From contig NZ_QKYK01000003.1 of NCBI RefSeq assembly GCF_003426815.1, positions 248,001 to 312,000 on the forward strand: a DNA stretch of 64,000 bases, written 5' to 3'. Below the pieces are notes generated by a model. It saw only the letters and a program-made list of their open reading frames with translations, did no database searches and had not been told where the DNA came from. Shown here piece by piece: positions 40,733 to 64,000 of this stretch. This DNA is from Desertimonas flava. GTDB taxonomy: Bacteria > Actinomycetota > Acidimicrobiia > Acidimicrobiales > Ilumatobacteraceae. The number at the start of each line of letters is the position of its first letter. Positions within the stretch are counted from its first letter, which is position 1. Position numbers and translations under genes: made by a program.

Positions 40733-40822
40733 GAAGTTTCTCCTGATCGGTCGTCGTCGTTGCGGTGGCGTCGGCGCGGAGCGCTGTGGCGAGCCGCGTC
40801 GCGGCACGGGCTCCGCCCGGCG

Positions 40823-41686: not shown

Positions 41687-41688
41687 CG

Positions 41689-42573: not shown

Positions 42574-42576
42574 CGC

Positions 42577-43773: not shown

Positions 43774-43873
43774 GGGGGTGGGGTTCCTCTGTCGGTGTCG
43801 GAGATGGGGGCTGAGGGATTCGGAGCGGGATTCTGCGGAGCGGATCGAACGGTTGGCGACGGCGAGCGGAGGC

Positions 43874-49120: not shown

Positions 49121-50716
49121 ATGTCCCGAGGAACGACGCTTGGCCGATCTGTCGTCCGACATCGAAGGCGTGCCGCCGTGATAGGCGTGGCCGCGGCCGC
49201 ACTCATCGGCAGCGTCAACGTCGGTGTCGACGCTTCGGCGCCGCCCGACCAAGAGCGCAGGGGTGGCAGCGTGACCGTCGCGCTGAACGGCCCGCCGCTC
49301 GCGATCGATCCGAGCCTCGATCGTATCTCGTTCTCCTACGGCATCGCCGTGGTCGGCGCCGCGATCTTCGGCCACCTCGCGTACGTCGAGCCGACGACGG
49401 GAGCGGTGAAGCTCTACTTCCTCGAGTCGCTCGAGCCCAACGAGGACGCATCGGTTTGGACGATGAGGCTGCATCCGAACATCAAGTTCAGCGACGGGAC
49501 GCCGCTCGACGCCGAGGCGATCAAGTACAACATCGAGCGCACGGCCGACCCCGAGACGGGATCGGCGTTCCAGGGCGCGGCCGAGGGCCTCGAGATGACC
49601 GTGATCGACGACCTCACGCTCGAGGTCGCCTTACCCGAGCCGAACAGGCTGTGGGACGCCAACGTCGTTGCCAACCTCTCCGCCGTCGGCTCCCCGACGG
49701 CGATTCAAGCGGCGCTCGATGCTGGCGAGGTCCCTGGCTCGAACCCGGTCGGGGCGGGTCCGTTCATGATCGACGAGTGGGATCCGGGGGCACGGGTGGT
49801 GCTCGCGGCCAACCCGTACTTCCAGGACTTCGAGCCCGGCCAGCCGTTTCTCGACGAGCTGATCTTCGAGGCGGTGCCCGACGATCAGCAGCGGGTCAAC
49901 GCCGTCTTGTCCGGGGCGGCCCAGATGTCGCTCGTGTACTTCGGCAGCGCTGCGAACGAGCTGCTCGAGAACGCCAACGCGGTGACCACGACCCCAGGTG
50001 GCGCCAACTCGATCAGCCTGAGCACGTCGCGCCCGCCGTTCGACGACGTGCGGGCCCGCCGGGCCCTCGCCCTCGCACTCGACCGGGCCGCGATCGGTGA
50101 GGCCATCAATCCCGGGTCGCCGCTGATGACCGGACTGTTCCCGGAAGGGTCGCCGTTCTACAACCCGGAGTACACGTGGCCTGAACAGGATCACGACGAG
50201 GCGCAGCGCCTCTTCGACGAGCTCGCCGCCGAAGGCAATCCGGTGGAGTTCACCTACACCACCAACGACAGCGCCACGCAACGAGACGTGTTCGACGCGC
50301 TCGCCGCCCAGCTCGCCGAGTACGACAACGTGTCGATCACGGCCGATGTGCGGACGCAGAACGACTACACCTTGGCGACCAAGGTCCAGCACGACTTCCA
50401 GACGAGCGCCTCGTGCGTGTGCTTCACGGCTCCGGTACCTGGGCTGTACGACTACCTGACGCCGGGCGGCATCGAGAACTACTCCGACTGGGAGAACGAG
50501 GACGTCACGGCGGCGTTGGCCGGCCTGTCCAGCGTCCAGAGCGTCGAGGAGCAGAAGGCGATCTGGGACGTCGTGCAACGTGAACTCGTCGAGGAGATGC
50601 CGATCCTCTTCTTCACCTCCGCAGGGATCACGCTCGGCTACGCCGACGGGCTGCTCGCGCCGGTGCCAGTGAACCTCGGGACGTACCCGATCTGGGCGGA
50701 GGTCGGATACGAGTGA
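49121..50716 (+). CDS. Family-5 ABC transporter substrate-binding protein, paralog 3
   Basis: A 531-aa SBP_bac_5 protein. Start ATG 49121 has AGGAGG seven bases upstream. Signal peptide RRRAAVIGVAAAALIGSVNVG without a lipobox cysteine. Blocks LYFLESLEPNEDASVWTMRLHPNIKFSDGTPLDAEAIKYNIER and RARRALALALDR match the two other paralogs (25657, 43874). Its stop overlaps the start of the next amidohydrolase by four bases (GTGA), linking receptor and enzyme directly. Confidence 0.92.
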   Translation: MSRGTTLGRSVVRHRRRAAVIGVAAAALIGSVNVGVDASAPPDQERRGGSVTVALNGPPLAIDPSLDRISFSYGIAVVGAAIFGHLAYVEPTTGAVKLYFLESLEPNEDASVWTMRLHPNIKFSDGTPLDAEAIKYNIERTADPETGSAFQGAAEGLEMTVIDDLTLEVALPEPNRLWDANVVANLSAVGSPTAIQAALDAGEVPGSNPVGAGPFMIDEWDPGARVVLAANPYFQDFEPGQPFLDELIFEAVPDDQQRVNAVLSGAAQMSLVYFGSAANELLENANAVTTTPGGANSISLSTSRPPFDDVRARRALALALDRAAIGEAINPGSPLMTGLFPEGSPFYNPEYTWPEQDHDEAQRLFDELAAEGNPVEFTYTTNDSATQRDVFDALAAQLAEYDNVSITADVRTQNDYTLATKVQHDFQTSASCVCFTAPVPGLYDYLTPGGIENYSDWENEDVTAALAGLSSVQSVEEQKAIWDVVQRELVEEMPILFFTSAGITLGYADGLLAPVPVNLGTYPIWAEVGYE

Positions 50717-51558
50717 CCCACTCGTCCACGCTCGACATCATCGACGCGCACCAGCACGTCGGTGACCTCTCCGACTCCCTGACGATGGACGGCGCGGCGC
50801 ACGGCCAGCGCGAGTCGGAGGACGTGCGGCGCGAGCGAGATGTGGCGAAACGCCTCGCACTCCTCGATCAGCAGCACGTCCGCCAGTCGGTGATCATCGC
50901 GAGCCACGCGTATCTGCGCCCTGACGGAATCGCCGACACAAGACGCGTCAATGAGGGCGTCGTTCGATACTGCCAAGTCCGACCGGATCGCTTTCCGTAC
51001 CCCGTGGGGGTCGTCGAGCCGCTGTACGGCGAACGGGGGCTCGCCGAACTCGATCGCTGTCGCGACGAGCTCGGAATGACAGGCATCAGCTTTCACACTC
51101 GCTTCCAAGGCGTCGCCCTGGACAGTCCGTGGATGTTTCGTTACCTGGAGCGGATGGGCGAGCTCGGGCTCGTGCCGTTCGTGCACGCGCTCGGTGTCAT
51201 CGCCGACCAAGCCCTCTGGCGTGTGGACAAGCTCGCGCGGGCGATGCCGGATCTCACGATGGTCGTACTCGCCGGGTTCGCGGACGCCGAGACTCCCTTG
51301 CAGCTCCATGACGTCGCAGACCGCAACCCGAACCTCGTCTTCGACATCTCGCTCGCCATCAACTTCGAGACGTTCGTCGAACCTGCCGTCCGCCGGCTCG
51401 GCGCACACCGCTTCGTGTTCGGAAGCGACACCTATTCGGCGGCGACGCGGCCTGGCCACGTGCTGGGCCAGCTCCTCGGCTCGGCCATGGACGATGCGGA
51501 CAAGGCTGCGATCGCCGGAGGCAACATTCGGCGGGTGCTGTCAGCTGCGAGCCGTTGA
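50713..51558 (+). CDS. Amidohydrolase 2 family protein
   Basis: A 281-aa TIM-barrel hydrolase or decarboxylase. Metal motif IIDAHQHVGDLS at the N-terminus, FHTRFQG, PFVHALG and the C-terminal FVFGSDTYSAATRPGHVLG. It starts at GTG 50713 overlapping the binding-protein stop. It is shorter than, and only distantly similar to, the ACMSD-like protein at 42577. The receptor-amidohydrolase pair repeats the layout of 43874-42577, which suggests parallel modules for related compounds. Confidence 0.85.
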   Translation: MTHSSTLDIIDAHQHVGDLSDSLTMDGAAHGQRESEDVRRERDVAKRLALLDQQHVRQSVIIASHAYLRPDGIADTRRVNEGVVRYCQVRPDRFPYPVGVVEPLYGERGLAELDRCRDELGMTGISFHTRFQGVALDSPWMFRYLERMGELGLVPFVHALGVIADQALWRVDKLARAMPDLTMVVLAGFADAETPLQLHDVADRNPNLVFDISLAINFETFVEPAVRRLGAHRFVFGSDTYSAATRPGHVLGQLLGSAMDDADKAAIAGGNIRRVLSAASR

Positions 51559-51756
51559 CGAGGGGCTGCCGAGGCTCACGTCGTCGAACATCGCTGAGCA
51601 TCGCAGGGCGCCGTGGCACGCGGTCACCACGCCCTCCGACCCGAAGCGCTCGAGGTCGGGCCGCTCGCTGATCGCGCTCGCAGCGAACGGCCAAGCCCGC
51701 TCGACATTTCTTGCGCAGATGTGTAACCGACGCTGCGTCCTCTCGTCGAGATAGCC

Positions 51757-51960
51757 ATGAATCACAAAGTGTTCCGCACCCTGGTTGCCGGCGGGTTCGC
51801 CGCCGCCACACTCACCATCGCCGTCGGGTCGCTCGCCGGCCCGTCCGCGACCGCCGCTGCGACGTCGCCGCCCGATGTGAGCACTGCCGCGCTGGCGCCG
51901 TCACCGCAGGGCATCATCATGAGCGACGGCCGGATCTGCAACCCCCGCTGGGGCTGCTGA
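51757..51960 (+). CDS. Small secreted peptide, unknown
   Basis: A 67-aa product. Residues 1-34 make a signal peptide (MNHKVFRTLVAGGFAAATLTIAVGSLAG), then an Ala/Pro-rich stretch and a short C-terminus with two cysteines (SDGRICNPRWGC), four intervening residues apart plus the end. It could be a secreted peptide with one disulfide. The ribosome site is weak. No processing enzymes are adjacent; it lies next to the IS110 element. Confidence 0.45.
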   Translation: MNHKVFRTLVAGGFAAATLTIAVGSLAGPSATAAATSPPDVSTAALAPSPQGIIMSDGRICNPRWGC

Positions 51961-52464
51961 CCCGCACTGGAGCGGTCGCGGCGCCGTTACCAGACCGCCA
52001 GCATGTGAAGTAGTCGATCGTCCGGAGATCAACGGCACGGCCGACGTCTTCCGACGGCCGCTCACTGACCGCCCCGAGAGCTTCATGGAGTACTAGGTCG
52101 CGCCCGACGCAGCGGCCACCACCATCCCCCTGTCGAGGAACCGTACGGACCACACCGAAGCGCGGGTGTCGACATGCCGTTCGGGTGCGCCCGGGCCAAG
52201 CATGTCGCGTGGTCGGGCCGGTGGCGGGTTGATACGGCGAAGGATGGATCTGCGTTCTGTGCTGACGTTCAGAGTTGTCCGATACCGAATCCTCTCTGTG
52301 TCAAGAGGGGCCTGAGGGCGCGTCGGAGCGGCGGCTGGCGGTGTGTCGTAGCGTTTGAGTTGGGGTCCGGGAGTGACTTCGCCGAAGAGCCGGTCTGTAG
52401 GAATGGAAGCCGGTCACGCTGGCTGAGAAGTCGTGTCCTGGTGTCCTCCCGGGCCCTCGGCAGG
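51961..52464. other. Gene-free stretch between small peptide and IS110 element
   Basis: About 500 bases without a convincing gene. The open plus-strand frame from 52174 is the antisense shadow of the transposase tail, and its upstream codons are not conserved-looking. The IS110 right boundary probably lies here. Confidence 0.4.
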
Positions 52465-53487
52465 TCAGCGGATGGCGTCGTTGACGAGGTGCCGGTAGGT
52501 GATGTTGGAGAGTTGTCGCTTGAGAGCGCGGATGGCTTCTTTGCCGGTCTTGCCGTCGGCGAGTCGTCGTTCGTAGTAGGAGCGGCCGGCGCTGCCGGGG
52601 TGGCGCAGTTGGCTGACCGCGGCCAGGTGCAGGGCGTGGTTGAGGGTGCGGTTGCCACGTTGTGAGACGCGGTGGGCGACACGGCCGCCGGAGGAGAACT
52701 CGGTCGGGGCGGTGCCGTTGTAGGCGGCGAAGCGGTCCCGATTCGTGAACCGGGCGATGTCGCCGGTGTTGCCGATCAGCATCGCGGCGATGATCGGGCC
52801 GATCCCGAAGACATCGGTCAGCGTGGTGCCCGACGCACGCACGGCGTCGCGGATGCGTCGCTCGGACCGCTTGATCTGTGCCTCCAGGCTCGCGATGTCG
52901 GTAGCGATCTCGGCGATCAGGTCCTTGCGGAGCTGGGCCACCGGATCGCACGGCGTCACGGTGGCGAGGAACTTGCCGGCGTCGGTCGAGTTCAGCCGCT
53001 TCGCGATCCCTCCTGGTGAGAGCTCCACCGCAAGCGCATGAAGACGGGACACGAGCCGAGTTCGCTGGTTCGACAAGTCCCGATGGCGCTTCGCCAACAG
53101 CCGCAGCAGCTCACACGAGCCAGCGGGCTGCACGATCCGAAGGTCGCCGTGACGCAGTGCCGTCACCGCCACGGACAGGGCGTCGTTGGGATCGTTCTTG
53201 TTCGAGCGTCCGCTGCCCAGCAGCCGCGTTCGCGCCGCCAGCGTGGCTGGAACATCGAGCACGGCTTGGTCTGCTGCGACGAGCTGCTGCGCGAGCAGGA
53301 ACCCGAGACCCTCCGCGCCTTCAATGGCCCAGCGCCGCTGCGGGAACGGCTCGGCCCACGCCAACAGCCGCTCCAGCTGATGGCGGCCGCTTCGCAGCTG
53401 CAGCCGGGCGAGCTCGACCCCAGCGTCGCCGACCGCCACCGCCGTGTGTGACGCCTTGTGCGGATCGATGCCGATCATCACGTCCAT
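52465..53487 (-). CDS. IS110-family transposase
   Basis: A 340-aa transposase starting at ATG 53487 (MDVMIGIDPHKASH). The N-terminal DEDD (RuvC-like) domain has GIDPHKASH, AIEGAEGLGFLLA and KNDPNDALSVA; the C-terminal Transposase_20 domain has TDVFGIGPIIAAMLIGNTGDIARF and YNGTAPTEFSSG with a catalytic serine. The frame is intact, so the copy may be active. The longer frame (to 53571) runs through the upstream flank and is not needed. Confidence 0.93.
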   Translation of the reverse strand: MDVMIGIDPHKASHTAVAVGDAGVELARLQLRSGRHQLERLLAWAEPFPQRRWAIEGAEGLGFLLAQQLVAADQAVLDVPATLAARTRLLGSGRSNKNDPNDALSVAVTALRHGDLRIVQPAGSCELLRLLAKRHRDLSNQRTRLVSRLHALAVELSPGGIAKRLNSTDAGKFLATVTPCDPVAQLRKDLIAEIATDIASLEAQIKRSERRIRDAVRASGTTLTDVFGIGPIIAAMLIGNTGDIARFTNRDRFAAYNGTAPTEFSSGGRVAHRVSQRGNRTLNHALHLAAVSQLRHPGSAGRSYYERRLADGKTGKEAIRALKRQLSNITYRHLVNDAIR

Positions 53488-53700
53488 GAAGTACCTCCGA
53501 GTTGACTGGACGAGAATCGCGGCGGGCACTCCTACTTGCGGATCGATGCGCTCGTTCCTCTCTCGAGCCACACCGCGACGAGATCCCGCCCGAGCCGCAC
53601 TTCGATAGAAAGCCAGACTCCAACAGAGCCGGCGGGCGCTTAGCGAGCGACACGGACGAGACCCCCGACGCTACGGAACACCGCCTCGTCACTAGACAGT
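52465..53700 (-). mobile_element. IS110-family insertion sequence (boundaries unknown)
   Basis: One transposase gene with about 200 bases of upstream non-coding DNA. IS110 elements lack terminal inverted repeats and carry a structured bridge RNA in a non-coding end, usually upstream of the gene in the IS110 subgroup. The 53488-53700 stretch (AT/GC mixed, with no gene) would be the place to look. The ends could not be fixed by eye. Confidence 0.5.
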
Positions 53701-54117
53701 CTGAAGTAGGCGCTTATGCGACCGGCGCAGGTCGGCCGATCGCGTGGTATCGGACGCGCGTATCGGGACGGCTCTGCCATCGGCGGAGCACCCGCGCCCG
53801 CTTTGAAAGACCAGCAGATTCGTGCGCTGCCTGGGATCTACACGTCGCTCGGGTGGTCAAGGCTCACGTGATGGACCGTGAGCGGATAGCCGATGAGACT
53901 CCCGCCTCGACACGATCCGATCTGGGGGGCCACGCTGCAGCGTCCGTGGTGTCGTCGCCGCCGAAGTCGGTTCGAAGCTCACCATTGATGTCGGTTGCCA
54001 CGAAGAGGCCCGCGGTGTAGTAGACGGGGCTCTACCGAGGCGGCCACGGCCGGCAGCAGCCACCCGCACAGGACGCCAGCCACGGGTCCGAGCTATGTCA
54101 CCGCACCCGAGGATGAA
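53701..54117. other. Gene-free stretch between IS110 and the lasso cluster
   Basis: About 400 bases with only short frames of no recognisable product. It follows the response regulator stop on the minus strand. No terminator hairpin stands out. Confidence 0.4.
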
Positions 54118-54813
54118 CTACCCGATTCGACGGGATGGGCGCGGGGTGGCTAGACCGACGTCGTAGGCGAAGATCACGGCCTGCACTCGGGTCTTGCAGT
54201 GGATCTTGCTGAACGCGCTGGAGAGATGTGACTTCACTGTCTGCGGTGTGACGTCCAGCTGGACTGCGATCTCCTCATTGCTGCGACCGGCAGCCAGCTC
54301 GGTGAGGGCATCGATCTCCCGCTGCGTGAGCTTAAAGAGTGTCGCGACATCAATCGTTGGCTCCGAGGCCTGTGCGTACTTGCCGATCAGCGTGCGTGTG
54401 ACTTCTGGGTCGACGAGCGCATCACCCCGGGCAACAGTTCGGATCGCGCGGTAGAGGTCGTCAGGGCGAGCGCGTTTGAGGAGAAACCCGTCGGCTCCGT
54501 GGCGGAAGGCATCGAAGACGTATTCGTCCTGGTCGAATGTGGTGAGCATCAACACTCCGGGGGCGGCTGGTCTCGCCTTGATCAGGCGCACCGCCTCGAT
54601 GCCGTCGATCCCCGGCATGCGGATGTCCAACACCACCACGTCGACCGTCAGAGACGTCGCCAGGTGAACGGCGTCCTGACCGTTGGCGGCCTGCCCGACA
54701 ACGCGCAGATCGTCTTGTGACTCGATCAGGTAGGCGAGCGACTCCCGCAGCAACTCGTCATCGTCGGCAAGCACGAGCCGAACCTGTGACGATCCGCCCG
54801 ACGACTCTCTCAC
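54118..54813 (-). CDS. NarL/FixJ-family response regulator
   Basis: A 231-aa regulator from GTG 54813, overlapping the kinase stop (GTGA). The receiver domain has ADDDELL, the phospho-accepting aspartate in VVVLDIRMPGIDG (about residue 64), TTFDQ and the lysine in FLLKRA. The C-terminal LuxR helix-turn-helix is LTQREIDALTELAAGRSNEEIAVQLDVTPQTVKSHLSS. Longer upstream frame is the kinase in another frame. It is the last gene of the lasso cluster and likely controls it, or responds to the mature peptide. Confidence 0.92.
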   Translation of the reverse strand: MRESSGGSSQVRLVLADDDELLRESLAYLIESQDDLRVVGQAANGQDAVHLATSLTVDVVVLDIRMPGIDGIEAVRLIKARPAAPGVLMLTTFDQDEYVFDAFRHGADGFLLKRARPDDLYRAIRTVARGDALVDPEVTRTLIGKYAQASEPTIDVATLFKLTQREIDALTELAAGRSNEEIAVQLDVTPQTVKSHLSSAFSKIHCKTRVQAVIFAYDVGLATPRPSRRIG

Positions 54814-56087
54814 CGGCTCCACGGGATCACCGCCTCGAGTACGAACGTGCCCTCGCCGGTGTCGGTCCACGCGAGGGAGCCGCCGAGCACGTCGAGTCGA
54901 CGCTGCAGGTTGGTCAGTCCCGTGCCGGTCCGCCTGGGTTGGGTCGCGGTCGCGACCCGGCCTGACGTCACGTTGAGCTCGACTGCGGCGACGCCCAGTC
55001 GGATTTCGACGCTCGCCCACTGTTCAAGTGAGTGCTTCAGCACGTTCGTGAGCGCCTCCTGGAGCACGCGAAACGCGGTCGCCGATGTCACCATGTCCAG
55101 TCGGGCCAGTTCGGACTGCTGCGGAGCAGATACGACGTTGACCTCGACACCAGTTCCACGAATCGTGGCGATCAGGTCCTCGTACCCCAGCAGCGTTGGC
55201 GTGGGGGCAGCGCTCACCGCAACACCGAGCAGCCGTGTCGTCCGGTCCATCTCCTCGAGGGCTGACCGAGCCGCACGTGTGATCCTCGAGAGCGACTCCG
55301 GGACTCGTTCGGGTCCACGCTCGAACTCGACCTTTCCGGACTCGGCGAGCACCAGCACGAGATTGAGCCGGTGACCGAGGAAGTCATGAAGGTCATCTCG
55401 GAGCCGCGCCCGTTCCTCGTTGATCGCAGCGATCTCCCGCTCCTCTGCGGCACGCTCAATCTCCGCCGCCTGCTGCCGCAGATCCTCGTTGAGCGAATGC
55501 TGATGTCGGACCGATGCTCCGCACGCGACAGCCAAGCCAAAGTAGCCGAATGTGGATCCGAGAATGAAGCTGTCCAACCAACCTTGTCGGGCCGTCGCAA
55601 TGAAGACCGCCGACACGGCGGCGAAAGCAAGGAGCGAGCGAACTGTGCTCCGCAGGCTCGCGACCGTGAAGAGCAGTACGAAGAGAGCGACAGAGACGTA
55701 CGCGTCGGCGGCGTCCTCGAAGTACTGCCAGATGCGCACCCCGGCAAGCAGGGCAAGGGCGAGTTCCGGAGCGACCCGCCGGAAGCAGACGACAACACAT
55801 ACGAGGACAAGCGTCACGATCGAGCCGATCGACTGACGTCGACCGTCAGCTGAGAGGAGCGCTGCGGCGTACACGGCGATCCCTCCCACCAGCGCCAGAT
55901 CAACGACGCCTGGCCAACGGCGAGTCACAATGCTGACCCGGTCGGCCCTAGGCTCGTCGACCGGATTCCGAACGCCGGCCACCCATTCAACTGTAGGCCC
56001 GTCGGCGACATGTCGCTGAGGCGGAGTGTGGTCGTCTCCCGCGACGTTGGTACCCCCTGAGGATCGAGGAGTGACCGCTCGACTCAT
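54810..56087 (-). CDS. Sensor histidine kinase (HisKA_3 type)
   Basis: A 425-aa membrane kinase from ATG 56087, which overlaps the stop of the RRE-protease gene (ATGA). An N-terminal hydrophobic region of about six helices (residues ~50-190: LALVGGIAVYAAALL, GSIVTLVLVCVVVCF and others) replaces an extracellular sensor domain. Then a coiled-coil linker, the phospho-acceptor histidine in RLRDDLHDFLGHRLNL, and an ATPase domain ending GTGLTNLQRRLDVLGGSLAW. Typical NarX-like partner for the LuxR-type regulator downstream. Sensing in the membrane fits a cell-envelope or peptide signal. Confidence 0.9.
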   Translation of the reverse strand: MSRAVTPRSSGGTNVAGDDHTPPQRHVADGPTVEWVAGVRNPVDEPRADRVSIVTRRWPGVVDLALVGGIAVYAAALLSADGRRQSIGSIVTLVLVCVVVCFRRVAPELALALLAGVRIWQYFEDAADAYVSVALFVLLFTVASLRSTVRSLLAFAAVSAVFIATARQGWLDSFILGSTFGYFGLAVACGASVRHQHSLNEDLRQQAAEIERAAEEREIAAINEERARLRDDLHDFLGHRLNLVLVLAESGKVEFERGPERVPESLSRITRAARSALEEMDRTTRLLGVAVSAAPTPTLLGYEDLIATIRGTGVEVNVVSAPQQSELARLDMVTSATAFRVLQEALTNVLKHSLEQWASVEIRLGVAAVELNVTSGRVATATQPRRTGTGLTNLQRRLDVLGGSLAWTDTGEGTFVLEAVIPWSR

Positions 56088-56878
56088 ATACGCGCGATGA
56101 CCACGAACTCGGCGCTGCGTCCGGTGGGCGTCACTCCGTCTAACTCGGTCCACGCGTGTGCGGCGAACGGAGGCAAGCGGGCACCGAGGCACCAGTTCGC
56201 AGGAATGCCGGACAGTCGACACCAGACCGTGGCCGCCAGGCTCGACTCGAGGCATTGGAACGCTGCCGTCCCGAGAACGCCCGTCGCCTCAGTGGCGGCG
56301 ACGATGCGTTCAAATCGCTCGCGGCCATCAACGGGGGCTCTCTCATCCTGGGACTGAAGGTTCTCGATGAGACGGATGCAAGAAGCGAACGACATGCAGC
56401 GCAGCATCAACCAGCTGACGAGCACAAGAACCACACCGACGACACGGTCGAATGAACGAGGCGGAAGAGGGGCACGGGGGCGTCGACTCCATCGAGATCG
56501 GTGCCTCGATGCTGGACGCGCCTCGCCGATCTCACGCACGAGGGACTCGTCGAGTAGCCAGCTCAAGAGCGCTCGCACGTCGCTCGCGACAACGGAGGAC
56601 GATACACCTTGACGCGACACCAAGTCAGCGATCAGCTCGTCGACCGTCGATCCGTCACCGATCGCAGTGAGCATTGCAGCCGCGGACCGGTTCAGGCCGA
56701 TCCAGCGACCGCGCCAGGCGTCCAGAAGCACCAGAGTGTCGTCGGCGAGCACCGCTGTGTAGACACGATCAGCGATGGAGTAACACCCCGTCAGGCCCCT
56801 CCCAGAAGGATGTCCAATCGGGTGCACGAGCCGTCCCATCTCGGCGCCCACCATCGGACCCATCCGTCCGGGCTTCAC
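56084..56878 (-). CDS. Lasso peptide biosynthesis protein B (fused RRE and leader protease)
   Basis: A 264-aa fusion of the two lasso B activities. Residues ~25-105 form a PqqD-like RiPP recognition element (LVLLDAWRGRWIGLNRSAAAMLTAIGDGSTVDELIADLV), which binds the leader. The C-terminal half is the transglutaminase-like leader protease, with the cysteine in FQCLESSLAATVWCRLSGI and the histidine in FAAHAWTELDG. I set the start at GTG 56878, which overlaps the cyclase stop (GTGA) as in the other genes of the operon; ATG 56902 is the alternative. The hydrophobic segment VVGVVLVLVSWLML before the protease core is usual for B2 proteins. Confidence 0.88.
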   Translation of the reverse strand: MKPGRMGPMVGAEMGRLVHPIGHPSGRGLTGCYSIADRVYTAVLADDTLVLLDAWRGRWIGLNRSAAAMLTAIGDGSTVDELIADLVSRQGVSSSVVASDVRALLSWLLDESLVREIGEARPASRHRSRWSRRPRAPLPPRSFDRVVGVVLVLVSWLMLRCMSFASCIRLIENLQSQDERAPVDGRERFERIVAATEATGVLGTAAFQCLESSLAATVWCRLSGIPANWCLGARLPPFAAHAWTELDGVTPTGRSAEFVVIARI

Positions 56879-57930
56879 GACAGACAGTTTCGCTGCATCC
56901 ATATCTCAGCGGCAGTGGTCCGGGCGATCGCTGCTGGCGAGCAACCAGCGCCGGCTGCGGCGAGATCGAGAGCGGTGAACCACCGGTCGAGGTCGATCAC
57001 GTCCCGCTCGGCAAGACGCGACTCCCGAAAGAGCCCCTTGATGCTTGCGAGATTGGTTCGAATGCCGACGGCGAAGTCTCGTTCATGGCCGCGCTGGCCC
57101 TTTGCCACAACGCGATCTGCGGGCGGCACTCCAAACCGTCGATGAAGGCCGTCGAGCATCGGCTTGGTGACGGCATTCGGCGGACGTTGGCACTCGTCCC
57201 ATCCCAGGCTCTCATCTACGACGACATTGTCCAAGAAGGGCATTTGCAGGTCGATTCCGAATCCTTCAGCGACCTCACGGTACGGCCCTGCTGCGGCAGC
57301 CAAAGTCGCGAGTGTGGTGAGCGACGAGGAGACGCTCGGACCGAACGGGCGATCAGCGGAACCGGCTGTCGCCAACTGGTCCACCAGCGCGTCGATCGCG
57401 GCGCGGCTCAGCCACGAGGGAGGTCGGGGCGGAACTGCCCAGTCCAATCCGCAACTCGACAGTGCCGACGGCAGCCGCCCGCCGGATCGTAGGGATCGGA
57501 CAACCATGTCAAGAAAGTCACCGTATGCCGAGCGCCGGACGCGATTCGCAGCCGCGATTACGCCCAGAATTCCTGCTCGATGCAAACGCCGGAGTCTCCT
57601 CGCCCCATCCGTGATCGACGCAAGCCGGAACTGGCCGATGGTGTCGGCGAGCACGGCTGGTGACGCCGAGAGGATTGCGTCGCCCCCGTCGCCGGTGAGG
57701 TGAACGTGCGCTCCATGCGATCTCGCTGTCGTGAAGACCTCGGCGGTCCGTCGGTATGCGTACGCCATTTCGAACGGTCGATCCGTCGAGGGAACGGCCA
57801 TCAGATCGGTAAAGAACCCTCGCGTGCGGACGACACTACGCTGACGAAGCGAACTAAATCGGGACGCGTATCCGAGCCCGCTGGAACTCGGGATCGGCAT
57901 TGCCTGTCCGGTCACTATAGGTGACAACAT
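56875..57930 (-). CDS. Lasso cyclase, C-terminal part (asparagine-synthetase-like, after frameshift)
   Basis: The second part of the lasso C protein. It shows the ATP-binding HLTGDGGDAILSAS, the aspartate-rich region DLQMPFLDNVVVDESLGWDECQRPPNAVTKPML and basic KGQRGHERDFAVG of lasso cyclases, which adenylate the Asp/Glu side chain and close the isopeptide ring. No ribosome site precedes its first ATG (57930), which lies inside the N-terminal frame. The overlap region 57854-57930 is where translation would have to shift by +1. Together with the N-terminal part it gives about 583 residues, the normal size. See the finding on the frameshift. Confidence 0.85.
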   Translation of the reverse strand: MLSPIVTGQAMPIPSSSGLGYASRFSSLRQRSVVRTRGFFTDLMAVPSTDRPFEMAYAYRRTAEVFTTARSHGAHVHLTGDGGDAILSASPAVLADTIGQFRLASITDGARRLRRLHRAGILGVIAAANRVRRSAYGDFLDMVVRSLRSGGRLPSALSSCGLDWAVPPRPPSWLSRAAIDALVDQLATAGSADRPFGPSVSSSLTTLATLAAAAGPYREVAEGFGIDLQMPFLDNVVVDESLGWDECQRPPNAVTKPMLDGLHRRFGVPPADRVVAKGQRGHERDFAVGIRTNLASIKGLFRESRLAERDVIDLDRWFTALDLAAAGAGCSPAAIARTTAAEIWMQRNCLS

Positions 57931-58624
57931 TCAGAGGATCGTCCACCGAGGCCCCCGTCGTGCGTGCTGCCAACATGGCAATAGCTCTGGAGTCGGCGCC
58001 ACCGCTCCAGTCGGTCGTCACTGCCCCTCTCCGTCCGCCGACACAGTTGGAAACGGCTCCTTCAAGCAGGTCTGCGAAGCTGTCGGCTGTTGACGAGTCG
58101 GAGCCGTTGCGTGGACCCCACCACCAACTGCGGTGTGCGCCCCTGGCATCGTGCCTCACTCGCGTGCCAGGCGCGACAGCTGTAACGTCCTCGAACGGTG
58201 CCTGTCCCACGGAGCATTCTGTGATCGTGGTGCCAGACAGCAATCCCGCGAGATACGCGAGATCAGCACGCCTACTTCGGGTGAGTGATCGAGCGGAGCA
58301 CGACACACGCAGCCTGGCACCATCTCGGGCCCAATACACAGGCATCATGGGCGCGAGGCTCGCCGTGATCGCTACGTCTTGACCTGATTGCTCGACAGCC
58401 GAGAAGTTGCCCGGCCTTCGGATAAGGGCTTCCGGTGACCCGTCTCGGGGATGGGATGCAGCTCCTAGCGAAGCAGGAACTTTCGACCCGAGGTACCACC
58501 GGTCAACTCGCTGGGAGTCCGGACCCCTCCACGAACTCGACGGACGCTGCTCAAGGGTGAAATCCAGTACTAGGTCCGTTCCCTGCCAACCGCCTCGACT
58601 CTTTCTTGTGTGTTCACCCTCCAT
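57854..58624 (-). CDS. Lasso cyclase, N-terminal part (asparagine-synthetase-like, before frameshift)
   Basis: The first part of the lasso C protein, 256 residues from ATG 58624 (or GTG 58627). The degenerate glutaminase-like N-domain lacks the Cys2 nucleophile, as in lasso cyclases. The synthetase domain begins with the PP-loop TTDWSGGADSRAIAML and ends in NVVTYSDRTGNADPEFQRAR before the frame runs to a TAG. The start ATG overlaps the precursor stop (TGATG), so precursor and cyclase are translationally coupled. Confidence 0.87.
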   Translation of the reverse strand: MEGEHTRKSRGGWQGTDLVLDFTLEQRPSSSWRGPDSQRVDRWYLGSKVPASLGAASHPRDGSPEALIRRPGNFSAVEQSGQDVAITASLAPMMPVYWARDGARLRVSCSARSLTRSRRADLAYLAGLLSGTTITECSVGQAPFEDVTAVAPGTRVRHDARGAHRSWWWGPRNGSDSSTADSFADLLEGAVSNCVGGRRGAVTTDWSGGADSRAIAMLAARTTGASVDDPLNVVTYSDRTGNADPEFQRARIRVPI

Positions 58625-58770
58625 CACTCCGGCAAGAGGTTGACGAAACCGATGCCGTCAGGCAAGAAGCCCCCGCTGCCAAGGGTCGTGTCCACGACGT
58701 CCCCGAAGACGACCACCAAAGGTGATTCATACGACTCGGCCCATGCAACCAGATCCTCTTCGTTGTCCAT
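58624..58770 (-). CDS. Lasso peptide precursor (A protein)
   Basis: A 48-aa precursor from ATG 58770 with GAGGAG four bases upstream. The leader (residues 1-30) has the RRE-binding motif Y14-E-S-P17-L-V-V-V-F-G23...T29-L-G31, exactly spaced as in the YxxPxLxxxGxxxxxTxG lasso pattern, with valine in place of leucine. T29 is the conserved Thr at -2. The predicted core is GSGGFLPDGIGFVNLLPE (residues 31-48): Gly1, ring-closing Asp8 and a ten-residue tail ending in Pro-Glu. It would be a hydrophobic class II (no cysteine) lasso peptide. The start chosen is the ATG with a ribosome site; an open frame to 58836 has none. Confidence 0.88.
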   Translation of the reverse strand: MDNEEDLVAWAESYESPLVVVFGDVVDTTLGSGGFLPDGIGFVNLLPE

Positions 58771-58836
58771 CGTGCTCCTCGACTCGTCACTTCTGAACCG
58801 CATCGAGACATAGGCAGACACCTCCGGCCGCGACAT

Positions 58837-59178
58837 CCGCCAAACGGGTCATAGGTCGCCTCCACCAAACGTTGGAGATGGTGTCCTGCCAACTACTCGC
58901 GCGCTCCTGAGAACTCTCGTCGCCGGCCGGGCGGTGCCCACACAGGACGGCAGCGTGCCTCCTGCGCTGATGTCCATCGATGTCCCGAAGCTGCCGCTAG
59001 CGCGCTTGGCCTCCTGGGCCTCGATTGTCAGTCCTTCGGGGGACCGGCCCTGTACGTCGATCGGGGGTTACGAAGCCAGCGGTACCGGCCTACCTGTGGA
59101 GTACCGCCTCACCGGCGCTGGGCCAGTCCAGTTCAGGGCGAACTAGGCGGCGCTGCGTTCACGACGAAAGGGACTTGT
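58837..59178. other. Divergent promoter region between lasso cluster and SH3-like gene
   Basis: 340 bases between the lasso precursor (minus) and the next gene (plus). A 70-codon plus frame at 58934 has no coding features. Promoters for both directions should lie here; no operator-like palindrome was seen. Confidence 0.4.
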
Positions 59179-59490
59179 ATGAAACGGGGAGTTCGACGGA
59201 CTGTTGCTGGGCTCGGAATCGCCGCCGCTACTGCGCTCGGTGCCACTGGGGGGACTGCACTGGCCGACACTTGCGGCACCACTCACGTCGCCGGATCGCC
59301 TGGCCAATGCAAGAACCTGCGATCAAGTGCGCAACTCGCCAACAACATCATCATGTGTGTCGCCAGCGGCACACCGATCCACAACTATTGCCAACATATC
59401 GTCCGCGACGGCTACACATGGACGAACGTCTCATTCACTCTGAATGGCAATCTGTACATCGGTTGGATGGCGACCGGCGGCGTCGCCTGA
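59179..59490 (+). CDS. Small secreted four-cysteine protein, SH3-like C-terminus
   Basis: A 103-aa exported protein. Signal peptide 1-29 (GLGIAAATALGATGGTALA cleaving before DT), then four cysteines at 32, 44, 60 and 71, so probably two disulfides. The C-terminus GYTWTNVSFTLNGNLYIGWMATGGVA resembles the end of bacterial SH3 (SH3b) domains. GGGGA lies upstream of the ATG. A very strong hairpin follows the stop. A cell-wall-binding role is a guess. Confidence 0.65.
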   Translation: MKRGVRRTVAGLGIAAATALGATGGTALADTCGTTHVAGSPGQCKNLRSSAQLANNIIMCVASGTPIHNYCQHIVRDGYTWTNVSFTLNGNLYIGWMATGGVA

Positions 59491-59494
59491 CTCC

Positions 59495-59542
59495 GACACG
59501 AGAACTCGGCGGGTGCGTCTGCACCCGCCGAGTTCTCGTGTC
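59495..59542 (+). terminator. Strong hairpin after the secreted protein
   Basis: A perfect 22-bp inverted repeat (59495-59516 and 59521-59542) with a 4-base loop, five bases after the stop codon. Probably a terminator, but the following membrane protein's frame is open through it. Confidence 0.8.
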
Positions 59543-61003
59543 CAAGCCGCGATTGCGCTCATTGCCCTGCTGGGGGCATTTCTCCGGGCGATCCCAGCCT
59601 TTGCGCCGCTTCCCTTTGCCCACAACTCGGACGAGGCTCGCCACATCGAAGCGATCTGGACAATGGCCCAGAACCACTCGATGGACTCGACGGTCTACAG
59701 CTACCCGGCACTGTTCTTCAACGCCGAAGCGGTGCTCACAACCGTCTTCTCGGCCGTGACCGGCCTCAGCGGTTCGCCAGTCGAGACATCATCGCTCGTC
59801 GCGATACGCATCACGAACGTACCGAGTGTCGTGTTGATGCGGACCTTCTCGCTCGCCGCGAGCACGGCGACGGTCGCTGCGGCAGCGCTCTTGGCCCGAC
59901 GGCTCTCGGGACGCGACGGTGCCGCGATCCTGGCCGCTGCGCTCGCCGCCTTGAACCCGCTGGACATTCGCCTCGGCGGAACCGTCACCGTAGATCCGTT
60001 GGCCGGGATGCTGGCCACGACGGCCCTACTCGGCGCGACCGGCTACGTCATCCGACCGGCGCGCTGGAAGGTCGGAGCAACCGGCGTGGTCTTCGGTCTT
60101 GCGGTTGCTGCCAAGTACAACGCTGCGCTGTTGGGGCCTGGCCTCATCGTCGCGGTGCTGCTCGTCAAGGGTAAACGCGCGTGGTCCACGATCGCAGGTC
60201 TGTGTGCCGCGATCATCGGTGGCTTCGCCGTCGCCAGCCCGCAGGTCCTGGCCGACCTCCCGACGTACTGGGCTTGGTTCCGCGGTGAGCAGACGCACTA
60301 TCGAAGCGGACACCCCGGCTATGAGGGCGGCGCGTTGACCTACTACCTGACGACGTCGTGGTGGATGGTCGGCCCGGCTCTCGCCGCCATTCCCGTCCTC
60401 GTACTCATGCGGCGATCATCAGCACGAGTCTGGCTCCCGGCCATCGTTTCGTGCGTCGGGTACGTCGGCTTTCTCTCGACATACACCACGCGGTTCGATC
60501 GGAATCTCCTCGTCGTGTCGGGCCTGCTGGCGGCACTCAGTGCGGCTGGCCTCACGGCGCTCTCCGACGCCGCACCACTCCGACGCTCGCTCATAGCGTT
60601 CGGCGCCCTGGCGCTGGCTGTCCCGGCCATGTTCGCAAGCCAGGCAGTCAGTAAATCGCTCCAAGACCCCTGGACCGCTGCCCGGAACTTCATCGAAGAG
60701 TCCATTCCCGAAGGTTCGTCATTGGCAGTCGAGTCGTACGGACCTTGGCTCCCCCCGAACTCCTACGACATCGTTCCGCTTGCTCAGGCGATCGACGTTC
60801 CTCTCGATTGGTACACAGAGTCGGGAATCGACTTCCTGATCACCAGCGACGAGGTTCGAGGCCGCTACGAGTCCGGTCAATACCCAGAGCAGATGTTCCG
60901 GTACGACATCCTCTTCGCCGCCACCTGCCTCATCGAGACCTTCGACAGTGAGGCGATGAGCATCGAGATCCGCTCGATCGCCTCGACCACGAATTGCCAA
61001 TGA
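59513..61003 (+). CDS. GT-C family glycosyltransferase (GT39/ArnT-like membrane protein)
   Basis: A ~496-aa integral membrane glycosyltransferase that uses a polyprenyl-phosphate sugar donor. About ten hydrophobic helices, with the acidic catalytic pair in the first external loop (FAHNSDEARHIEAIW), and later LNPLDIRLGGTVTVDPLAGMLA and a C-terminal outer domain. Start is uncertain: the frame is open from ATG 59444, overlapping the previous gene. I use GTG 59513, which falls within the hairpin; neither has a good ribosome site. Candidate roles are glycosylation of an envelope protein or glycan. It may modify the preceding secreted protein. Confidence 0.8.
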   Translation: MRLHPPSSRVQAAIALIALLGAFLRAIPAFAPLPFAHNSDEARHIEAIWTMAQNHSMDSTVYSYPALFFNAEAVLTTVFSAVTGLSGSPVETSSLVAIRITNVPSVVLMRTFSLAASTATVAAAALLARRLSGRDGAAILAAALAALNPLDIRLGGTVTVDPLAGMLATTALLGATGYVIRPARWKVGATGVVFGLAVAAKYNAALLGPGLIVAVLLVKGKRAWSTIAGLCAAIIGGFAVASPQVLADLPTYWAWFRGEQTHYRSGHPGYEGGALTYYLTTSWWMVGPALAAIPVLVLMRRSSARVWLPAIVSCVGYVGFLSTYTTRFDRNLLVVSGLLAALSAAGLTALSDAAPLRRSLIAFGALALAVPAMFASQAVSKSLQDPWTAARNFIEESIPEGSSLAVESYGPWLPPNSYDIVPLAQAIDVPLDWYTESGIDFLITSDEVRGRYESGQYPEQMFRYDILFAATCLIETFDSEAMSIEIRSIASTTNCQ

Positions 61004-61318
61004 CGTTCAGCGACGTCGTGTAGGGGCACGCTTGTGTGGAGCAACGAGCCGATCAGGCCGAGGGATCCGGACTGTAGGGCAGGGGTGGTGGCGATTGCGC
61101 CGAGTTCGGTCGCGCTCGCTCGCGAAGCTGTGCTGCACCACGCTCGACGTCGACGAACGAGCCTCGCGAAGCTCCGCTTCCGCGATTGGTTCGCACGGCG
61201 CCAGTGTCGCCCCCGATCGAGGCCGAACCCTGGGGCATCGTGTAAGGCCGCCGAATACCACACACGCCAGCGTCCGGTATCGCCGGCAGTATGGCGGCGG
61301 AAGTTGTTTCGCTGTGGT
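61004..61318. other. Gene-free stretch before mazEF
   Basis: About 315 bases without a supported gene. It contains a copy of the 16-bp repeat at 61271-61286. Confidence 0.4.
61271..61286. repeat. 16-bp repeat CGTCCGGTATCGCCGG, copy 1
   Basis: First of four copies (others at 61922, 62533 and 63224) spaced between genes. Located 33 bases before the mazE operator. Confidence 0.55.
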
Positions 61319-61332
61319 CGTTACATGTAACG
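61319..61332. promoter_or_regulatory. Palindromic operator CGTTACATGTAACG of the toxin-antitoxin operon
   Basis: Perfect 14-nt palindrome ending seven bases before the antitoxin start (GTG 61340). Placement suits autorepression by the antitoxin, the usual mode in mazEF modules. Confidence 0.6.
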
Positions 61333-61339
61333 TTGTGGT

Positions 61340-61561
61340 GTGCCCCGCCGACGAACCCCTGTATCCGGGGCAGAGCGCGTGCGCGAGCACCGCCAGCGGC
61401 TCCGGGCGCAGGGTCTTCGTCCGGTCCAGATCTGGGTGCCCGACGTCCGCTCGCCGGATTTCGCCGCGCAGGCCCACCAGCAGTCCGCCGCCGTTGCCGC
61501 TAGTGAGCACGCCGCGGACGACCAAGCGTTCATCGACGCACTCAGCCTGGACGAGGAGTGA
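61340..61561 (+). CDS. MazE-like (DUF3018) antitoxin
   Basis: A 73-aa protein from GTG 61340. The basic, helical N-half (ERVREHRQRLRAQGLRPVQIWVPD) matches the DUF3018/MazE-like antitoxin pattern; the acidic C-terminus (QAFIDALSLDEE) would bind the toxin. Its stop overlaps the toxin start (GTGA), as in most TA modules. It probably also binds the palindrome at 61319. Confidence 0.8.
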   Translation: MPRRRTPVSGAERVREHRQRLRAQGLRPVQIWVPDVRSPDFAAQAHQQSAAVAASEHAADDQAFIDALSLDEE

Positions 61562-61908
61562 GGCGCGGCGAGATCTGGACCGCTGCGGCAGGCAGCGGCT
61601 ACGTCGGTAAGCCTCGCCCCGTGGTCGTCGTGCAAGACGACCGATTCGATGCGACGGGCTCGATCACCGTCTGTGCGATGACGACCGATCCGACCGAGGC
61701 ACCGCTGTTTCGTGTGCTCGTCATGCCGGATGAGAACAACCAGCTCCGCGAGACCAGTCGCATGATGGTCGACAAGCTGACAACGGTCCCTCGCTCGAAA
61801 CTCGGCGAACGCATCGGACGGCTCAATGACGAAGACATGGTCCGACTCGGCCGCGCCATCGTGGTGTTCCTCGGCCTCGCTGGGCCATCTCAAACCGGCA
61901 ACCTATAA
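61558..61908 (+). CDS. MazF-family endoribonuclease toxin
   Basis: A 116-aa PemK/MazF-like toxin. Typical text: MRRGEIWTAAAGSGYVGKPRPVVVVQDDRFDATGSITVCAMTTD, then MVDKLTTVPRSKLGERIGRLNDEDM. The conserved Arg (KPRPVVVV) and Thr/Ser sites for RNA cleavage are present. The toxin cleaves mRNA at short motifs when unneutralised. The pair is complete, with GTG 61558 overlapping the antitoxin stop. Confidence 0.9.
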   Translation: MRRGEIWTAAAGSGYVGKPRPVVVVQDDRFDATGSITVCAMTTDPTEAPLFRVLVMPDENNQLRETSRMMVDKLTTVPRSKLGERIGRLNDEDMVRLGRAIVVFLGLAGPSQTGNL

Positions 61909-61921
61909 CCGCGGTGGACAC

Positions 61922-61937
61922 GGTCCGGTACCGCCGG
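61922..61937. repeat. 16-bp repeat, copy 2 (GGTCCGGTACCGCCGG)
   Basis: Between the toxin and the SET-domain gene. Differs from copy 1 at two positions. Confidence 0.55.
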
Positions 61938-61959
61938 CCTCCTCGCGTCGTGGTCGGAG

Positions 61960-62508
61960 GTGAGCTTCACTGGTGCGGTGGAGAGGATCCCGATTGACGT
62001 GTGGGTGCACCCCGCCGTGCGGGTTCGGTGCTCGGCGATCGCTGGCGACGGGTTGTTCATCGACGAGGCAGTGCCCGCCGGCACGCCGTTGATCCGCTTC
62101 GGTGGAACGGCAGTCACCACCGCCGAGCTTCACGAGCTCTTCGAGGACGCAGACGCCAACGGCACCTACGTCGACACGATCGCCATCGGGCCCGACCGTC
62201 ACCTCGTACTTCGAGCAGGCTCGATCGCCCACTACGGGAACCACAGCTGCGACCCGACGATGTGGTTCGGCGCGCCATTGGAGCTCGTGGCCCGCGTCGA
62301 CCTCGAACCCGGATCCGAGCTCACCAGCGACTACGGCGTGATCTCCGACGATGTCACCTTCGAGATGACGTGCCGATGTGGCGCAGCGGCGTGCAGGCAG
62401 GTCATCACGGGTCGTGACTGGCAGCTCGAGCACCTCCAGCTCCTCCACAAAGAGCGCTGGCCAGCCGGCCTACAAGCTCGTATCGACGCCAGGCGAGCAT
62501 CCGAATAG
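61960..62508 (+). CDS. SET-domain protein
   Basis: A 182-aa protein with a complete SET fold: GDGLFIDEAVPAGTPLIRFGG, the S-adenosylmethionine-binding NHSCDPTMW, ELTSDYGVIS and a post-SET cysteine cluster, CRCGAAACRQ. SET domains methylate protein lysines. Some bacterial ones are poorly understood and may act on host or own proteins. It starts at GTG 61960 with GGAG immediately upstream; GTG 61978 is another option. Neighbours give no clue to substrate. Confidence 0.85.
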   Translation: MSFTGAVERIPIDVWVHPAVRVRCSAIAGDGLFIDEAVPAGTPLIRFGGTAVTTAELHELFEDADANGTYVDTIAIGPDRHLVLRAGSIAHYGNHSCDPTMWFGAPLELVARVDLEPGSELTSDYGVISDDVTFEMTCRCGAAACRQVITGRDWQLEHLQLLHKERWPAGLQARIDARRASE

Positions 62509-62532
62509 GACGACACCACGAGCACGGACCGG

Positions 62533-62572
62533 CGTCCGGTATCGCCGGATCCCTACCGTCCGCTATCGCTGA
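62533..62572. repeat. 16-bp repeat, copy 3 with a degenerate tandem copy
   Basis: Copy CGTCCGGTATCGCCGG at 62533-62548, identical to copy 1, followed by CGTCCGCTATCGCTGA at 62557-62572, 13 of 16 bases the same. Lies between the SET gene and the next hypothetical gene. Confidence 0.55.
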
Positions 62573-62637
62573 TTGGAAGCATCCTTGATTCGGCGATCGG
62601 GCTACGCACCGCCGGCAGGTCGGCCAAACTGCCGTGC

Positions 62638-63072
62638 ATGAACGTTTCAGCGGCTGACATTGAGGTGGCGGTTGGCGAAGCGCTGCCTGGCAATGCCGCG
62701 GCGCCCTGGCACGTGAGAGCGAGCCAACGCGACGACCGGGTGTGGGAGGTTGAGCTACGTCACGAAGCCTCCAACGGTCTGGTCATCGACACAGGCGTGA
62801 GCGATCCCGCCGATGCGATCTCGCGGGCCATCGAGTTACTCGCCACCAACCGCGAGGTCGCTCGCATCGCACGAGCCCCGCATCTCCAGCACCCCGAGGC
62901 CGTAGCCGGTGTCCGCACGCTCGTACAAGCCTTTGGCTGGTCCAGGACCGAGGTACGCGCCGTCGTCGGCCTGCTTATCGACGTCGCAGCGTTGAGCGAG
63001 GACGAAGCTGACTGGCTCCGAGACTGGTTCGGCGCAGACAAGCCGGCTCCACGCGCTTCGGAGATCATGTAG
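62638..63072 (+). CDS. Hypothetical protein
   Basis: A 144-aa soluble protein from ATG 62638. Composition and pattern are normal for a gene: a mixed N-terminal half (VWEVELRHEASNGLVIDTGVSDP) and a helical C-terminal half (VRAVVGLLIDVAALSEDEADWLRDWFG). No family recognised. Confidence 0.6.
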   Translation: MNVSAADIEVAVGEALPGNAAAPWHVRASQRDDRVWEVELRHEASNGLVIDTGVSDPADAISRAIELLATNREVARIARAPHLQHPEAVAGVRTLVQAFGWSRTEVRAVVGLLIDVAALSEDEADWLRDWFGADKPAPRASEIM

Positions 63073-63381
63073 ATGAGCCGGCGCTCAGCGGACGCTCGAG
63101 GATGCACCGAGCGAAACCCCCCGCCCGAAGGAACTACATCCATATCGTCACGTGCAGCCGCCCGGACGTGCTTGCTAGGTATGGGAGTGTCCGATAACGC
63201 GTCTCCCACCAAGTGGACCCCGGCGTCCTGTACCGCCGGCTGGATCCTCAGTCGGGACTGTCAGACGACCCCGAGCCACGTCAGGGAGCGGATCGATGTG
63301 GCGGACCGTCGACGGCCGACCGGTTGTATTGCCTGGATGAGGTGTCCGCTGGCCGGCAGCCCACCATCTCGAGTCGCCGGT
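63073..63381. other. Gene-free stretch containing the fourth repeat
   Basis: About 310 bases between convergent genes, with no supported gene. Contains the repeat copy 4 (63224-63239). Confidence 0.4.
63224..63239. repeat. 16-bp repeat, copy 4 (CGTCCTGTACCGCCGG)
   Basis: Fourth copy, differing from copy 1 at two positions. Near the end of the 62638 gene. Confidence 0.5.
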
Positions 63382-64000
63382 CTAGGTCTCGACGATGCTG
63401 ATGGCGATCGGGCCGACGGCGAAGTCGCCTTCGGTGATGTTCACCGTGTCGGTGACCACGCTGTACACGGCGTACAGGTCGTAGTCGCCCGACGGAAGTG
63501 TGTGGCCGACCGACGGATCGCACGCCGCGGTCGGAACGCTCACTGTCCCGTCGAAGACCGCGCCCGGTTCGAGATCGACCGGGACCAGGTTCGAGGTGAG
63601 ACCGAAGTTGGCGTTCGGCACACCGACGACATCACTGGTCTCCGGGTCGGCCAGGTAGACCGACGGATGGCCGGATCCGAACGCGATCCGCTCCGACGTG
63701 GCATTGACGAACGGGACTCCGACGGTGGCGTGAACCCCGTGGGCGGCGGTGACGACAACCGGAACCGGTTCCGTCACGGCGTACGGGAGGTCAGGAGTCG
63801 TTGCCGGGAGGTCGGGGCAGACCGGCTCCGGGAGCGGGTCGGGCATCGGATACGGAAACGCCCCGAGCGACAGGTCGAGTTGGTCGCCGTAGTCGGTGTG
63901 AAGCATCTCGGCGGTCGCGTCATGGCCGGCGAGCACGTTGACGTCGACGCGGCCGTCCATGCCGTTCGGGCCGAACGCGTGCTCGAACTCGGCGAGTCGT
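63382..64000 (-). CDS. Probable exported/surface protein, C-terminal part (cut by window edge)
   Basis: The frame is open to the right edge, so the true start is beyond 64000. The visible ~206 residues are rich in Val, Pro, Asp and Thr. The last part has a beta-sandwich style: GSGHPSVYLADPETSDVVGVPNANFG, LPSGDYDLYAVYSVVTD and ISIVET. Few charged-basic residues suggest an extracytoplasmic protein. An ATG at 63960 lies in the frame but is not the start. No family name. Confidence 0.5.
   Translation of the reverse strand, partial: RLAEFEHAFGPNGMDGRVDVNVLAGHDATAEMLHTDYGDQLDLSLGAFPYPMPDPLPEPVCPDLPATTPDLPYAVTEPVPVVVTAAHGVHATVGVPFVNATSERIAFGSGHPSVYLADPETSDVVGVPNANFGLTSNLVPVDLEPGAVFDGTVSVPTAACDPSVGHTLPSGDYDLYAVYSVVTDTVNITEGDFAVGPIAISIVET

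Follow-up and report, generated by a model that had tools for sequence, protein, structure and literature searches.

The minus strand of the window, by which we mean the whole 64,000-nucleotide stretch analysed here (bases 248001-312000 of contig C23, from a draft genome of 6.22 Mb in 73 contigs, 96.6% complete), carries a lasso-peptide operon that, judged by the ancestry and parts of its predicted proteins, is genuine, with the gene order A-C-B-K-R (Table 1). The cyclase gene contains a single frameshift. Since this falls inside the ATP-binding synthetase domain of the cyclase, the cluster is most likely broken or strain-variable and non-producing, a reading that we hold with considerable, though not full, confidence. 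The operon is a divergent and perhaps dead addition to a known class, ordinary in mechanism, with a frameshifted cyclase. The first-pass annotation had recognised the span as a lasso locus, which holds, but had left unnamed the two regulatory genes inside it.

Table 1. Features of the operon and its downstream neighbour (positions in the window)
Feature	Position	Strand	Basis
Lasso precursor A, 48 aa	58624..58770	-	NF033521 match, chaxapeptin spacing, sole motif in window
Cyclase C, first half: N-terminal domain and PP-loop WSGGADS	57854..58627	-	NF033561, alignment with lasso cyclases
Cyclase C, second half: rest of Asn-synthase domain (HLTGDGGD, KPML)	56875..57930	-	NF033561, PF00733
Fused B, 272 aa or shorter (later start): RRE/PqqD-like and B2 cysteine-protease parts	56084..56902	-	NF033537, PF05402, PF13471
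Sensor histidine kinase K (HisKA_3, DUF7134), 425 aa	54810..56087	-	PF07730 39.3 (cut-off 24)
NarL/LuxR-type response regulator R, at most 234 aa	54118..54822	-	PF00072 95.3, PF00196 60.1, both above cut-off
IS110-type transposase, downstream neighbour, outside the pathway	52465..53571	-	PF01548 and PF02371 above cut-off

Operon layout and the split cyclase

The genes, their families, their overlaps and the break are shown by the analysis. A and C overlap by TGATG, and B and K by ATGA. At the C/B and K/R junctions an in-frame GTG permits a GTGA overlap, and a longer one results if each frame is read from its first start; the stop-start overlaps that had been described from A through C to B therefore stand for A/C and are only possible for C/B. 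PF13471 gave one match across the whole source genome, and thus no sign of a second lasso set. The same genome gave 11 matches for WhiB, a family that matched only one of 14 control genomes (Corynebacterium glutamicum), and on this ground we regard the source as an actinobacterium.

The cyclase had been taken for one product of 56875-58624, and this did not hold. It consists of two open frames in different reading frames, matching consecutive parts of NF033561. The first (58627/58624-57854) begins with GTG at 58627 or ATG at 58624, ends at an early stop soon after the frameshift, and covers model positions 75-248 of 561 with 76.3 bits. The second (57930-56875), in which the homology begins at about codon 18, covers positions 280-556 with 128.4 bits. 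Each half scores below the NF033561 cut-off of 300, as does the whole, unbroken cyclase of Streptomyces sp. YIM 121038 (281.7). With PF00733 the first half scored 14.6, below the cut-off of 21, and the second 21.9, above it. The operon thus has no complete asparagine-synthetase-like cyclase, the homology and the motifs being divided between the halves. As the PP-loop lies in the first half and GDGGD in the second, the break cuts the catalytic domain. When the two protein halves were joined by X, they aligned with 10 cyclases, the nearest of which, from actinomycete lasso clusters, were 26-30% identical. Two frameshifts were also considered for the cyclase; this was dropped, since the alignment runs directly from frame 1 to frame 2.

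Other genes of the same assembly were used as controls for the break. Each of the 14 ABC_membrane matches falls within one frame (589 to 1550 aa); all 58 AMP-binding matches are without an internal stop, and none was seen whose remainder lay in another frame. Two AMP-binding matches on C37 share one frame, so that these represent 57 genes, and the two controls (71 genes) detect breaks inside the searched domains only. As no split was found among these 71 genes, the frameshift is probably a real lesion. The strongest alternative, a local assembly or base-calling error that leaves the operon intact and working, is less likely but deserves serious consideration. A rare local error would look identical to a true break, and this is one lesion in about 4.6 kb, in which the frames of A, B, K and R are uninterrupted and their junctions overlap; that these four show no lesion suits either a recent break or an assembly error. 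Besides the unbroken control genes, an error is made less likely by the lack of any homopolymer longer than three at the break (read by eye), and by the finding of only two other same-strand overlaps above 100 bases in the window. The latter is a weak control, because the coding-score script behind it missed the cyclase break itself. Those two overlaps, between a ribonuclease III and an acyl-carrier gene (different families) and between K and R, are both accounted for by start-codon choice.

The precursor and its predicted core

The 48-aa precursor frame was confirmed at 58770-58624; it encodes MDNEEDLVAWAESYESPLVVVFGDVVDTTLGSGGFLPDGIGFVNLLPE, and AGGAG sits four bases ahead of its ATG. We predict that it divides into a 30-residue leader, MDNEEDLVAWAESYESPLVVVFGDVVDTTL, and an 18-residue core, GSGGFLPDGIGFVNLLPE, with a ring from Gly1 to Asp8. 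The core would accordingly have the N-terminal Gly and the Asp or Glu at position 7-9 that are expected, behind the leader, of a lasso precursor.

The leader model NF033521 (lasso_leader_L3) gave 20.0 bits for the 48-aa precursor and 19.1 for a longer 70-aa frame, the cut-off being 19. This margin of one bit was counted against our explanation. With the same model the chaxapeptin precursor scored 33.6 and that of the albusnodin-type cluster of Streptomyces sp. BB1-1-1 21.2, and the precursors of YIM 121038 and Amycolatopsis sp. AA4 gave no listed match. Since precursors of known clusters also score low or go unlisted, the low score found here is not unusual.

Of the leader YxxPxLxxxGxxxxxTxG that had been described, the spacing YxxP-(5)-G-(5)-T-x-G was confirmed, but the L of YxxPxL is V. 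The strict and loose forms of the motif occur once each across the six frames of the window. In 40 first-order Markov sequences of window length the mean was 0 for the strict form and 0.175 (maximum 1) for the loose form. When the precursor was aligned with five precursors of plasmid lasso clusters, the P, G and T and the step after T-x stayed in register. Register with the chaxapeptin precursor supports the predicted Gly1-Asp8 ring.

The core and its mass of about 1769.9 Da were reproduced, the recalculated monoisotopic value for cyclised GSGGFLPDGIGFVNLLPE being 1769.8988 Da. Both peptide and mass are predictions for a product that the genome as sequenced may be unable to make. A core beginning one residue earlier, with a nine-residue Leu1-Asp9 ring, a mass of 1882.98 Da and the first of two threonines at -2, is unlikely. 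The adjacent threonines T28 and T29 permit either start, and Leu at core position 1 is known from citrulassin; the chaxapeptin precursor, however, has DTLG in the same register and is cut before Gly.

The core had been noted as unrecognised, and the searches agreed with this. GSGGFLPDG had no match in a text search of 5.39 million papers, and the precursor had none among 72,556 plasmids at E values up to 10. Nor did 149 other genomes of the family yield a close precursor; 18 of them had matches with E values no higher than 1 (lowest 0.05), which we took for chance. That the core is new is probable rather than proven, because the literature search left outside its scope the subscription papers and supplementary tables in which many lasso lists sit.

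The fused B protein and comparison with known lasso systems

The proposed fusion of RRE and protease was confirmed in B, which scored 61.6 with the lasso B2 model NF033537 (cut-off 33), 65.5 with PF13471 Transglut_core3 (cut-off 26) and 40 with PF05402 PqqD (cut-off 23.4). With the narrower lasso PqqD model NF033530 it scored 41.5, below the cut-off of 70. An RRE (B1) and a cysteine protease (B2) are both present, and the Cys and His motifs (CLESS ... HAW) aligned. All three lasso parts, A, B and C, thus have support from curated models or from homology. An AlphaFold model of B from the single sequence was useless (mean pLDDT 38.7). A PDB sequence search gave no match for A or B, and a PDB search with the cyclase profile gave one, the hydroxyamidotransferase 7ylz.

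Relatives of B and C were few. Against 148 other relatives, among which no other genome of the same genus was listed, B gave three weak matches, in the RRE part only and with E values of 2.2e-5 or worse. A search with the second cyclase half gave matches in 6 of the 395 other genomes of the phylum sample (23-31% identity) and in 6 of the 72,556 plasmid records; a scan of viral contigs with the same half gave no match. Scans of genome contigs gave 145 pattern matches with B and 13 with a two-row cyclase alignment, none of them confirmed; this is weak evidence of absence, because the automatically chosen peptide patterns were poor. NF033561 matched 207 of 395 genomes of the class, none above cut-off, and 11 of the 14 controls. 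As it widely matches ordinary asparagine synthetases, we drew no evidence for lasso clusters from this search.

PF13471 matched 29 of the 395 genomes of the class, 24 of them above cut-off, the source genome included. We examined the loci of 20 of the 23 others above cut-off (all except G098, G104 and G393). A cyclase frame was found with our own model in eight of the 20, and a single frame spanning RRE and B2 in none, several contigs being short and the six-row B model having missed the B2 part at some loci at which Pfam detects it. Two of the loci surveyed are of separate interest. At L080:5459-7933 (G416:C6) an 824-aa frame matches the cyclase and B models, and PF13471 too, with a separate RRE gene upstream; by these matches it is a cyclase-protease fusion. 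At L085:6912-7661 (G340:C83) seven consecutive short frames carry the lasso leader motif, six of the seven with DGS after T-x; the array lies near a B2 gene and an RRE gene and may be read as a multi-precursor, lasso-like array.

The A-C-B order is also found in three plasmid lasso clusters. That of Streptomyces sp. YIM 121038 (L074) has a cyclase 29.3% identical over 543 columns and the same fusion, one B protein of 237 aa matching both PqqD (25.8, cut-off 23.4) and Transglut_core3 (60.3, cut-off 26). It differs from the operon described here in having an ABC transporter gene and another core; its precursor, which we identified in a 'hypothetical protein' entry, gave no match to any NCBIfam model. 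The albusnodin-type clusters on plasmids of Amycolatopsis sp. AA4 (L073) and Streptomyces sp. BB1-1-1 (L075) likewise have a single B (251 and 242 aa, respectively) and cyclases 29.6% and 27.3% identical. Their B proteins give no PqqD match and so have no recognisable RRE, whereas B here has one. In those clusters B is followed by a GNAT gene and a Lys is present in the core; here K and R come after B and the core contains no Lys.

An acetyltransferase gene and a conserved core Lys are described for the albusnodin family in PMC9266682. The present precursor stays in register with those of that family but does not belong to it, there being no acetyltransferase match, no core Lys and, with the albusnodin precursor model NF033525, a score of 16.8, below the cut-off of 30. 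No match to an acetyltransferase family was found among the 10 proteins scanned at 51757-61003, a region that includes the whole operon.

The chaxapeptin cluster (Streptomyces leeuwenhoekii pSLE2, L076) shares the register YxxP-(5)-G-(5)-T-L-G and the Asp at core position 8. It differs in having separate B1 and B2 genes, a cyclase only 24.6% identical, and a core of 15 residues, the length of chaxapeptin given in PMC12427821. A sensor kinase and response regulators are also present in the siamycin/humidimycin clusters, a likeness in gene content; unlike the operon here, those clusters are described in PMC7168211 with a disulfide-bearing class I product and exporters. The same source gives one kinase and two regulators for the humidimycin cluster, and states that homologous regulators influence the yield of MS-271. 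Background on precursors and B proteins is found in PMC8498205, PMC12670498 and PMC7533575.

In a tree of 18 rows the window cyclase grouped with actinomycete cyclases (albusnodin-type, S. halstedii, YIM 121038 and G663) with support 80/89, on a long branch (1.96) and apart from the lasso-like cyclases of its own class; we are unsure of this sequence-based placement. A functional cyclase produced as two chains or by ribosomal frameshifting is very unlikely. Both halves could be translated, since an ATG of the second (57930) precedes the stop of the first (57854); but the break splits one catalytic domain between PP-loop and GDGGD, and the comparison cyclases, the 10 aligned and two more on Rhodococcus plasmids (one of these starting at the record end), are each a single open frame. 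No known slippery signal was recognised either. Still less probable is a deep-branching lasso lineage with a fused RRE-protease, built-in two-component control, no exporter and a two-chain or recoded cyclase. The least probable reading, that there is no lasso operon and an asparagine-synthetase-like gene merely lies next to a chance small frame, could draw on a precursor barely above its cut-off, but B lies 28 bits above the cut-off of the lasso B2 model and 16 above that of Pfam PqqD, the leader motif is unique in the window, and the gene order matches annotated lasso clusters.

Surroundings of the operon and the proposed pathway

No dedicated ABC exporter (D) was found in the cluster: the genome has 14 ABC_membrane matches, all of them outside the window, and on this contig they are at C23:2712-5293. 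The lack of a neighbouring exporter was counted against our explanation. Third-position GC was 0.68-0.79 in the four operon frames selected by script, compared with 0.82-0.97 in 38 of the 44 selected frames to the left. On the right (59444-63072) the script selected six frames, five of them also at 0.74-0.81, and the shift therefore extends beyond the operon. The operon sits in a stretch that differs in composition from most of the window. The coding-score script selected neither B nor the first cyclase half, which was counted against confident coding by local usage. A promoter and terminator scan gave 0 and 2 sites, respectively, not above shuffles, and Rfam had no matches in 50000-64000.

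Several other features of the window were observed. On the plus strand, a 67-aa frame (51757-51960) has a signal-peptide-like start and the tail GRICNPRWGC, and matches no NCBIfam or Pfam family. A 103-aa secreted-looking protein (59179-59490, plus strand), also without a family match, is encoded divergently from the lasso operon; just past its gene lies a perfect 22-base inverted repeat with a 4-base loop (59495-59542), a terminator-like hairpin without a T run. A pair resembling MazE antitoxin and PemK/MazF toxin lies at 61340-61908 (plus strand), both above Pfam cut-offs. At 40088-43923 (plus strand) two long frames (478 and 748 aa) have a third-position GC of 0.63, low for the window, and no Pfam match.

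For the lasso operon with its frameshifted cyclase, we infer the cleavage site, the ring, the regulation and the loss of function. Were the operon intact, B would bind the YxxP leader through its RRE part and cut after Leu30, with Thr at -2, through its B2 part. The cyclase would activate Asp8 by adenylation and close the ring on Gly1 around the threaded tail; the product would be an 18-residue class II lasso peptide of 1769.90 Da. Expression of the operon would be controlled by the two-component pair K-R.

With this locus the lasso catalogue gains a core sequence and a divergent cyclase. The locus also illustrates that a cluster call based on motifs can hide a broken catalytic gene, and hunting for the predicted mass should wait until the cyclase frame is verified.
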